Assembly (NCBI RefSeq): GCF_001601825.1
Contig: NZ_LUJK01000010.1
Span: 16,342-80,341, forward strand
Origin: Limnobacter sp. CACIAM 66H1
Lineage (GTDB): Bacteria > Pseudomonadota > Gammaproteobacteria > Burkholderiales > Burkholderiaceae_B
Length of the DNA stretch: 64,000 nt
Direction: 5' to 3'
Below, in pieces: positions 38,158 to 40,565 of this stretch. The notes below the pieces were generated by a model. The model saw nothing but the letters and a program-made list of their open reading frames with translations, had not been told where the DNA came from and made no database searches. Position 1 is the first letter of the stretch. Every line of letters starts with the position of its first letter. The translations under genes and the position numbers were made by a program.

Positions 38158-39444
38158 TCAAGCGAATCTTGGTTTGGCGTGAGTTTCGCGGCTCAACATC
38201 AAACTGACAATTGACGAGCCCACCCACACAGCAAGTACCAGCATGCACACAGTCATGCCAGCTTTTGAATAAGCACCGGTGATGTTTTCCACGGCTGCAT
38301 AGTGGTCAAGAATCGCACCCAGTACAGGCTGCTGCACCAGTGGGCCGACCATGACACCCAGGTTCACAATGCCCACTGCGGTAGCACCCAAATGGTGGGG
38401 CACCGACTCCTTCACGTAACCGAAGCTCAGCACCATGGAGCCACCCCCAAAGGCCGTGATCCACAACAAAACCGACACCAGTGAAATCGGAAGTTCAGGT
38501 TGAATACCCAAAATGATGAAGCCACTGATCGACAAAACCGCGCCTATAAAATAGGGCAGTTTGCGCTGCTTGAGCTTGTCGGAAAGCGCACCAAAAAACA
38601 GGCTGCCAGCGGCAAAGGCGATCAGCATGCCGGTGATAATCAGTGAGGCCTCTTTCACGCTGAGCCCATGCCAGGTGGTGAGGTAGGGCACACCCCACAG
38701 GCCGGTGAACGTAAGAATTGCACCGCAAACACCACTGGGAATCCAGAAAATCAACCACACAGCAGGAAAGCGAAGTGTGTGGCCCAAAGCGGTAAGCAAT
38801 GGCAAGGTGACTTCATTGGCGGGGCGTTTGGCCACGTGGTTTTTGTAGCCGCGCTGCGAGGGCATGTCGCGAACATAAATCCAGATCAGCAGGCCCAGTG
38901 CCACGGCAATCATTCCACTGGCGCCCATGACCATGCGCCAGCCAAACAAATCGGAAAGTGCACGCAAGGGCACGCCTGCCAGTACGGCACCCATGGTGCC
39001 CACGGCCAGGCTGACACCGGACATGCTGGCGAAACGCGCCGGCGAAAACCACTGGGCCACCAACATCAGCATGGACACCCAGGCCACTGCAACCGAGCCA
39101 CCCACCAAGCCGCGACCCACTGCCGCCCAACCCAGGGTGGGTGCAAAGCCGAACATGAGAGCACCCATACCGCCGAGCATACAGCCCGCAGTCAGAATTT
39201 TGCGCGGACCAATTCGATCGACCAACAGCCCCACAGGTATTTGCATGGCTGCGTAAAAGTAGAAGTAAAACGCAGAGAGGTTGCCCAGTGCTGCGCGGCT
39301 GAGGTCGAACGTGGTGCTGAGTTCCTCGGTGAGTACGCCAGGTGTAACGCGCTGAAAGAAACCGAACAGGTAAAACGCGGCTGCCAGGCCCCAGATGATG
39401 AACGACATCCGCAGGGGGGGCGGGGAAAGGTGATTGGGCGACAT
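38158..39444 (-). CDS. MFS transporter
   Basis: Major-facilitator transporter of 428 aa with about twelve transmembrane segments. It has the loop 2-3 motif LLVDRIGPRKIL and the loop 8-9 motif FGALSDKLKQRKLP. The start is Met at 39444 (MSPNHLSPPPLR), not the ORF-track start at 39531. The family resembles sugar-phosphate or organic-acid MFS carriers, but the substrate is unknown. It lies downstream of a 452-bp stretch that holds a candidate structured leader on the same strand. Confidence 0.88.
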   Translation of the reverse strand: MSPNHLSPPPLRMSFIIWGLAAAFYLFGFFQRVTPGVLTEELSTTFDLSRAALGNLSAFYFYFYAAMQIPVGLLVDRIGPRKILTAGCMLGGMGALMFGFAPTLGWAAVGRGLVGGSVAVAWVSMLMLVAQWFSPARFASMSGVSLAVGTMGAVLAGVPLRALSDLFGWRMVMGASGMIAVALGLLIWIYVRDMPSQRGYKNHVAKRPANEVTLPLLTALGHTLRFPAVWLIFWIPSGVCGAILTFTGLWGVPYLTTWHGLSVKEASLIITGMLIAFAAGSLFFGALSDKLKQRKLPYFIGAVLSISGFIILGIQPELPISLVSVLLWITAFGGGSMVLSFGYVKESVPHHLGATAVGIVNLGVMVGPLVQQPVLGAILDHYAAVENITGAYSKAGMTVCMLVLAVWVGSSIVSLMLSRETHAKPRFA

Positions 39445-39603
39445 GGTGTTGTTCTTGTGGTGACTGCAGGCAGTGTCGCATGTGGGCGCGCTTGTGCCAC
39501 TTGGGTGTAACCCGAGTGGTCTCTTGCTCAACTCGGCGTGGGTTCCTTGTGTCGCACTGGACTAGTGGGCTTGGGAGCTAAACTTGAATGGTCACCGCTG
39601 CCC

Positions 39604-39733
39604 GAAAACTTGGCATTTCGGCTTGTCGTCTTGAGCCTGCACTAAGCCAAGCCCTCCAAAAGTAACGGTCGGGTCTTGGCTTTCGCGCCAGGGCGCGATC
39701 ATTAGTCTCTGCGCGCCAAGCCGGCAAGTTTTC
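39604..39733 (-). ncRNA. Candidate structured leader RNA upstream of the MFS gene
   Basis: The 452-bp stretch 39445-39896 has no gene, but it contains ordered complementarity. GAAAACTTG (39604-39612) pairs perfectly with CAAGTTTTC (39725-39733). Inside, CTTGGC occurs at 39609-39614 and 39675-39680, and GCCAAG at 39646-39651 and 39715-39720, allowing mutually exclusive pairings. A GC-rich hairpin CGCGC/GCGCG sits at 39684-39697, and CCGAAA/TTTCGG pair at 39602-39620. Alternative folds suggest a switch-like leader of the minus-strand MFS gene, or an independent RNA. No known riboswitch or housekeeping RNA was recognised, and the strand is inferred from the MFS context. Confidence 0.45.
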
Positions 39734-39896
39734 TGACTGGTCATCGTGCGACCCATTGCAAGTTCAGCTCCCCGTACTCCCGTGCAGCGCTTCGCCATCA
39801 CCACGCAACTCGCAGCTGTGTTTGGTGCCCAATCGGCGGCGGTGTTTCGATCGCCTCGCCTTCAAGAAAACTACGAGGGAGCGGAACCCAAGCCGA

Positions 39897-40565
39897 TTAA
39901 ACCAGCACCGTGCTATTCCATGCCGCCATGGCCAGCGCAGCGCGTTGCTCAACTACCTTGGCTACATTGGCTACACCGTCCAGCCCCGCAGTCAGCCATG
40001 TGCCACCCACCGCTTGCACTGCTTTGATTTCACGCCACTGCGGCAGGTTTTCCAGTGTAACGCCCCCGGTGGGTATCACACGTGCCGTGGCCAACGGTGC
40101 GGTAATTCCTGCCAAGGCTTTGGGGCCACCTGCTGCCATGGCCGGAAAAAACTTCAGCAATTCAAACCCCAGTTCAAGCCCGCGCATCATTTCCGATGCT
40201 GTGGCGGCACCGGGAACCCAGGCATATCCTTTTTTCAGGGCGTGTTCAGCCAGGGTTTCAGTGAGGCCCGGTGAAATAAACAGCGTGGCTCCAAGGTCCG
40301 CGCTTTGATCAAATTGTGCTGGCGTTAAAACCGTGCCTGCAGACAGCTGCATTTGAGGAAAACGCCTGGCGATCTCGCCCAAGGCTTCAAGCGCAACCGG
40401 GGTGCGCAATGTGATTTCAATTTGAGTGATGCCACCTGCGCAAAGTCCTTCCGCAATTTCCAGTCCTTGTGTGAGGTCGCTGATCACTACCACGGGCAAA
40501 ACGCCTTGCTGCAACCAGTGTTGTGTGCGTTCAAGGCGTGTGTCGGGTTTGTATTGGGTGTTCAT
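39897..40565 (-). CDS. eda: 2-dehydro-3-deoxy-6-phosphogluconate aldolase
   Basis: KDPG aldolase of 222 aa that cleaves KDPG to pyruvate and glyceraldehyde-3-phosphate. The Schiff-base lysine lies in LKFFPA and the catalytic Glu in ITQIEITLRTP; GLTETLAEHALKKG and PTGGVTLENL fit the TIM-barrel family. It begins with an ATGA overlap to edd, so translation is coupled. It completes the Entner-Doudoroff pathway with edd and zwf. Confidence 0.95.
   Translation of the reverse strand: MNTQYKPDTRLERTQHWLQQGVLPVVVISDLTQGLEIAEGLCAGGITQIEITLRTPVALEALGEIARRFPQMQLSAGTVLTPAQFDQSADLGATLFISPGLTETLAEHALKKGYAWVPGAATASEMMRGLELGFELLKFFPAMAAGGPKALAGITAPLATARVIPTGGVTLENLPQWREIKAVQAVGGTWLTAGLDGVANVAKVVEQRAALAMAAWNSTVLV

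Follow-up and report, generated by a model that had tools for sequence, protein, structure and literature searches.

Among the closest described systems, the ERIC elements (also IRU or RU-1) are enterobacterial intergenic palindromes of 127 bp that occur in tens to hundreds of copies and possess an RNA fold (PMC2229807, PMC2267715), the YPAL or RU-2 repeats of Yersinia measure about 168 bp and are associated with target duplications of 3-26 bp (PMC2229807), and REP units span 20-40 bp (PMC3733652). The segment at positions 39604-39733 of the 64,000-nucleotide stretch of DNA analyzed here (hereafter the window) very probably belongs, as one unit, to a family of dispersed, structured palindromic repeats that is specific to Limnobacter and works in the manner of the ERIC, YPAL and BIME-type elements. 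The comparisons below establish the repeat identity, fold, layout, genomic context and turnover of this family, which displays the hallmarks of dispersed palindromic repeats, namely multiple, mainly intergenic copies, a shared stable fold, and the existence of both filled and empty orthologous sites. The family is new and limited to the genus, and on the comparisons made it belongs to none of the ERIC, YPAL or BIME groups.

The resemblance to ERIC extends to length (127 versus 122-131 nt), the long imperfect palindrome, the intergenic location, the copy number and the RNA fold. However, the Limnobacter unit is Y-shaped with two inner hairpins, unlike the single long stem-loop of ERIC, and its pairs face outward and are accompanied by tandem boxes; no duplication of a TA target was demonstrated. 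Homology to ERIC itself was rejected, a blastn search of the E. coli genome collection having recovered no match to the units at E<=0.01. With YPAL the family shares a palindromic, not A+T-rich sequence, the lack of TA ends, and filled and empty sites between species (PMC2229807), whereas the genus and the length differ and the target duplications of YPAL were not seen in Limnobacter. The CIR (Caulobacter repeats) and two-hairpin families such as Pae-1/Efa-1 likewise have units with multiple hairpins (PMC2229807, PMC2267715), but CIR lacks a closing 5'-3' stem (PMC2229807), a distinction drawn from the published description. The intergenic location of palindromic units in inverted pairs is reminiscent of REP/BIME, from which the Limnobacter units differ in being several times longer and in the absence of the Y1 transposase (PF01797) from the genomes that bear them, save a contaminated assembly. 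REP units are also known by tags such as GTAG or CGTC. Integron attC sites are imperfect hairpins of similar size with one-sided bulges, in which structure is kept more than sequence, and the Limnobacter units resemble them in each of these respects. Nevertheless, the base of the hairpin has no attC core sites: the 31 units compared end in GAAAAC/GTTTTC rather than in the core RYYYAAC/GTTRRRY, and they form inverted pairs rather than direct arrays.

The unit lies within a gap of 452 bp (39445-39896), bounded by the start codon of an MFS transporter gene (38158-39444, minus strand; conserved ATG codon at 39444-39442) and the stop end of a KDPG aldolase gene (eda; 39897-40565, minus strand), which faces the repeat; both names are readings of the sequence. 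The window is from Limnobacter, its aldolase gene having its closest relatives in named Limnobacter species. No credible gene is present in the gap, which is non-coding, in agreement with an earlier note that had described a gene-free region of 450 bp devoid of coding signal. The core unit (39604-39733), a 130-nt Y-shaped quasi-palindrome of subfamily T, is oriented on the minus strand, the oriented strand being the one with the small hairpin 5' of the large hairpin, and is recovered by model R1 with 96.5 bits (E=1e-19). Its closing stem, P1, is a perfect helix of 9 bp between GAAAACTTG (39604-39612) and CAAGTTTTC (39725-39733), with the outer six pairs invariant across 31 units. The small GC hairpin, P3 (TCGCGC CAGG GCGCGA, 39683-39698), is assigned from the fold, and the equivalent helix covaries in subfamilies C2 and C3. 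The large hairpin, P4 (AAGCCAAGCCC / GGTCTTGGCTT, 39644-39682), bears a conserved apical segment, CCCGACC...CTTTTGGAGGG on the minus strand, and its equivalent helix shows compensatory changes in 10 of 13 pairs. Two copies of CTTGGC (39609 and 39675) and two of GCCAAG (39646 and 39715) are present. The closing stem, the two copies of each hexamer and the strong GC hairpin had all been correctly recognized in the earlier note. The segment is predicted to fold at -54.0 kcal/mol on the plus strand (z -4.05) and at -54.5 kcal/mol on the minus strand (z -4.52), with 0 of 200 shuffles as stable. The Rfam covariance search that the earlier note had recommended was run and returned no family at the gathering score in the window and none at E<=1 in 39440-39900, consistent with its statement that no familiar riboswitch or housekeeping RNA was recognizable.

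The core unit is embedded in a composite repeat (39524-39902, with repeat sequence from about 39518) that comprises an outer box, the unit, a spacer, the site of a missing second unit and another outer box; copies elsewhere in the same genome match from 39518 or 39524 to 39871 at 83-95% identity. The low-coordinate outer box (39527-39546; GGAACCCACGCCGAGTTGAG on the minus strand) has its counterpart on the high-coordinate side on the plus strand (GGAACCCAAGCCGATTAAAC, 39883-39902; 3 mismatches, 0.01 expected by chance), and the segments 39533-39546 and 39883-39896 are 93% complementary, forming the terminal inverted repeats by which MITEs are recognized. An inner box on the plus strand (39830-39871), which ends in GAAAAC, corresponds to the position of the partner (plus) unit in other copies (L124, L127 and others). 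At the window locus the partner is missing, and the GAAAAC at 39866-39871 passes straight into sequence leading towards the outer box at 39883; the partner might have been lost, or might never have been there.

A BLAST search of the window's own genome yielded 36 matches, about 12 of which span the greater part of a 350-bp core with 83-95% identity. A covariance model built from 31 units detected 49 units in this genome and 93 in the closed genome of a relative (G010), and matched 14 of the 17 Limnobacter genomes, the three without detectable units being G003 and G011, both incomplete, and G016. The same model found units in none of 44 relatives of other genera, and in a sample of 300 genomes of the order units were confined to 1 of 134 genera. 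Searches of plasmids and phages gave no match to the units and a search of viral contigs with one exact 24-mer gave none either, and on these searches a plasmid, phage or viral origin was rejected. The units are Y-shaped quasi-palindromes of 122-131 nt, which in the oriented direction consist of GAAAAC, the closing stem of 9 bp, a longer stem whose 3' side bears a 5-nt bulge, the small hairpin, the large hairpin and GTTTTC, the terminal hexamers being present in all 31 units of set A1. Four subfamilies, namely T (that of the window), C1, C2 and C3, have unlike stems on a plan common to all, and seven further units fold with z values of -5.0 to -7.9. More divergent units occur in G005 and G015. 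The units of G015 (L182:1501-1637) retain the Y shape and the 5-nt bulge, with a different closing stem and no GAAAAC/GTTTTC ends. Given this different closing stem, the model undercounts distant subfamilies.

Covariation was assessed on an alignment of 46 distinct units of the C2/C3 type, in which 94.1% of the cells are paired under the Y structure and 24 of 46 pairs show double-sided changes. Compensatory cells number 198, versus 63.6 +/- 6.4 when the letters of the 3' side are shuffled and at most 34 for slid structures, the latter comparison favouring the reference structure since it was derived from one of the aligned sequences. Not one of the five covariation measures was reached by any of 500 shuffles; related sequences can surpass shuffles even without structure, although the pair and pair-type counts were rarely fooled in the trials of the tool. 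The outcome that the earlier note had named as refuting its idea, a lack of covariation in relatives, did not arise: the search for compensatory changes that it suggested brought out strong covariation, which belongs to a dispersed repeat family and not to an MFS leader. The covariation shows that the fold has been maintained; alone, it is no proof of selection on an RNA. With the structure fixed, site types with G-U and A-C changes stand at 19 to 11 (p 0.2), which favours neither strand significantly, and the broken-pair cells comprise 86 of the 'other' type and 38 A-C. A strand call based on 134 to 16 G-U/A-C cells was discarded, as the control with the structure of the opposite strand identified it as mostly an artefact of prediction.

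In three genomes, neighbouring units within 600 bp of each other are placed minus-then-plus in 66 of 66 instances, with no other orientation. A box, GGAACCCAAGCCGATTGGGC, lies about 13 bp outside the units, often in tandem at 42 bp, and the outer box pattern has 51 matches in the genome versus 0 for the reversed pattern. The minus-then-plus order, taken together with the outer boxes, defines a layout of box, unit, spacer, unit and box that points outward. Tandem arrays of two to four outer boxes with a 42-bp period are seen at L235:436-497 and G000:C22:7704-7849, and each arrayed box could form a small CCCAA/TTGGG hairpin. At L214:1163-4755 in G007, two units are placed plus-then-minus about 3.4 kb apart, an order that none of the close pairs shows. 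The 56 classified loci of G000 and G010 fall between convergent (36), tandem (19) and divergent (1) gene pairs, versus 2, 15 and 5, respectively, among the intergenic gaps of the window delineated with the same rough ORF caller, a baseline that is small and not genome-wide. Units strongly prefer the 3' ends of genes. Orthologous sites show that these elements turn over between species. Thus, the L127 site holds a pair in G000, G008, G012 and G007, is reduced in G006 and G001, and is devoid of units in G013; at L111, G000 has a stretch of about 190-200 bp with a unit, which is absent in G002 between nearly identical flanks; and at L124 the similar flanks enclose a C2 unit in G000 but a C1 unit in G002. 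These filled, empty and swapped comparisons are not polarised as to gain or loss, and no clean target-site duplication was seen at filled and empty sites, where the intergenic flanks are too divergent. At L116 the intergenic sequence of the relatives aligns too poorly for an insertion boundary.

The earlier note had proposed that the segment could be a new ligand-switched leader with mutually exclusive stems, controlling the minus-strand MFS gene, a reading that is now exceedingly improbable. Its attraction lies in the position of the unit, which is 160 bp ahead of the start codon of the MFS gene and folds strongly on that strand, and in the CTTGGC and GCCAAG copies, which allow more than one pairing. 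However, the 49 units adjoin unrelated genes, mostly at their 3' ends, and the preferred context is between convergent genes, where no start codon follows; no conserved link to the 5' ends of functionally related genes emerges, and Rfam offers no match. The orthologous MFS/aldolase locus in other species (L031, L032, L033 and L037) has units with a similar fold, several of them with unlike stems, and units of other subfamilies occur there, and in a metagenome-assembled genome (MAG; L034) a unit lies beside eda with no MFS gene matched in the fetched region. The mutually exclusive stems can indeed form in the window copy, but the alternative pairing is not conserved: only 1 of 143 distinct units has both arms of the closing stem matching the large hairpin by at least 6 nt. 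The conserved element upstream of the MFS gene is instead a separate palindrome outside the repeat, CACTTGGGTGTAACCCGAGTG (= CACTCGGGTTACACCCAAGTG; 39498-39518); the sequence CTCGGGTTACACCCAAGTGGCA upstream of this gene is identical in the window and five orthologous loci, whereas the repeat units there differ. To judge from this sequence conservation, the palindrome is a candidate regulatory site, possibly an operator or promoter element of the MFS gene. Hence, copy number, context and orthologous loci together speak strongly against a leader or riboswitch of the MFS gene, and of the alternatives raised in the earlier note, a leader or a compact RNA, what stands is a real non-coding structured element. 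The window unit is incidental to the MFS gene, its position being behind the stop codon of eda. In this position, as at the other gene ends favoured by the family, read-through from neighbouring genes would place the hairpins at the 3' ends of mRNAs, where they would act in termination, stability or processing, and such action would help to keep the units folded. It is plausible, albeit somewhat short of probable, that this role came first and the spread second, with the units being bidirectional terminators or 3'-end stabilisers at the ends of convergent genes. The 36 of 56 loci between convergent genes, with only 1 between divergent genes, and the symmetric GAAAAC...GTTTTC ends, which supply A-run and T-run flanks on both strands, are in line with such a function. 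Against it, a consensus scan found no site resembling an intrinsic terminator, the distant L182 unit dispenses with the GAAAAC/GTTTTC ends, and tolerance to insertion alone would yield the bias towards convergent genes. Alternatively, the palindromes could be kept perfect mainly by template switching during replication (quasipalindrome correction) rather than by selection, the elements being inert selfish DNA, which we consider rather unlikely. Template switching can create and maintain hairpins with compensatory multi-base changes (PMC8794818), quasipalindrome hot spots have been documented in E. coli (PMC7202029), and both the non-significant G-U/A-C asymmetry and the many broken-pair cells are in line with this process. 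Yet the units keep unpaired features likely to be removed by such correction, namely the one-sided 5-nt bulge, the two-hairpin junction and the apical loop, and the bulge, the junction and the apical loop of the large hairpin persist even in the distant L182 unit with its different closing stem. The covariation may, nonetheless, be partly explained by hairpin-correcting mutation (PMC8794818).

As dispersed repeats, the units would spread as a non-autonomous element or through recombination between copies, with the participation of a trans-acting factor. The search for a mobiliser, which covered PF01797 only, found no Y1 transposase (RAYT/IS200) in any of the 14 Limnobacter genomes of good quality; among the unit-bearing genomes there were two hits, both in G009, an assembly with 6% contamination. 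A RAYT-driven REP system is rejected on the basis of this absence from good genomes, the unit length of 122-131 nt instead of 20-40 nt, and the GAAAAC/GTTTTC ends. Another possibility, which we regard as improbable, is a system of gene-carrying cassettes that have the paired units as their ends and gain and lose cargo between them. At one locus, the minus/plus pair encloses an NlpC/P60 gene and a gene for a protein of 163-171 aa in G010, G007 and G001 (L203:1062-2563, L213:1520-3012 and L264:2299-3642, respectively; L213 is the ortholog of L203 and not an independent case), while in seven species (G000, G002, G006, G008, G009, G012 and G013) the pair at the NlpC/P60 locus has a short spacer. 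Of two other pairs, one encloses a Peptidase_C92 gene together with an orphan, and the other an unassigned gene for a 132-aa protein. However, cargo-sized minus/plus pairs make up only 2 of 32 in G010 and are lacking in G000 and G008, the junction between G009 and G010 lies within the spacer at a 5-bp GCAAT match and not at the unit borders, and no recombinase was found nearby. The widely spaced pairs were also considered as autonomous transposase elements, and this was rejected since what they enclose are NlpC/P60, Peptidase_C92 and orphan genes. The Peptidase_C92 gene, which encodes a permuted papain-like amidase, is enclosed together with a 204-aa orphan gene at L204:1052-2834 in G010. At L206:1002-2295 in the distant G005, units without the small hairpin enclose the 132-aa gene, which has no Pfam match; by eye, a HGKAVDIS motif in its product resembles those of zinc peptidases. 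Cargo between units is a lead, not a result. Extending it, the units would be the ends of a mobile system specific to the genus, recognized by their shape as single-strand hairpins, mobilized in trans by an enzyme of no known transposase type and able to carry peptidoglycan-hydrolase-like cargo with an orphan partner between outward-facing ends, a speculative scenario to which we assign a low likelihood.

The reading of the family as dispersed palindromic repeats has implications beyond the window. For annotation, it serves as a warning that a well-folded stretch upstream of a transporter gene may be a repeat rather than a riboswitch. The close species with swapped, lost or gained units provide a natural test of selection on the folded strand versus hairpin-correcting mutation. 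Elements of the ERIC, YPAL and BIME types have been found in few well-studied groups, to which this family adds a Betaproteobacterial genus, offering up to 93 copies per genome, a two-hairpin Y fold with extensive base-pair turnover, and strict outward-facing pairs.
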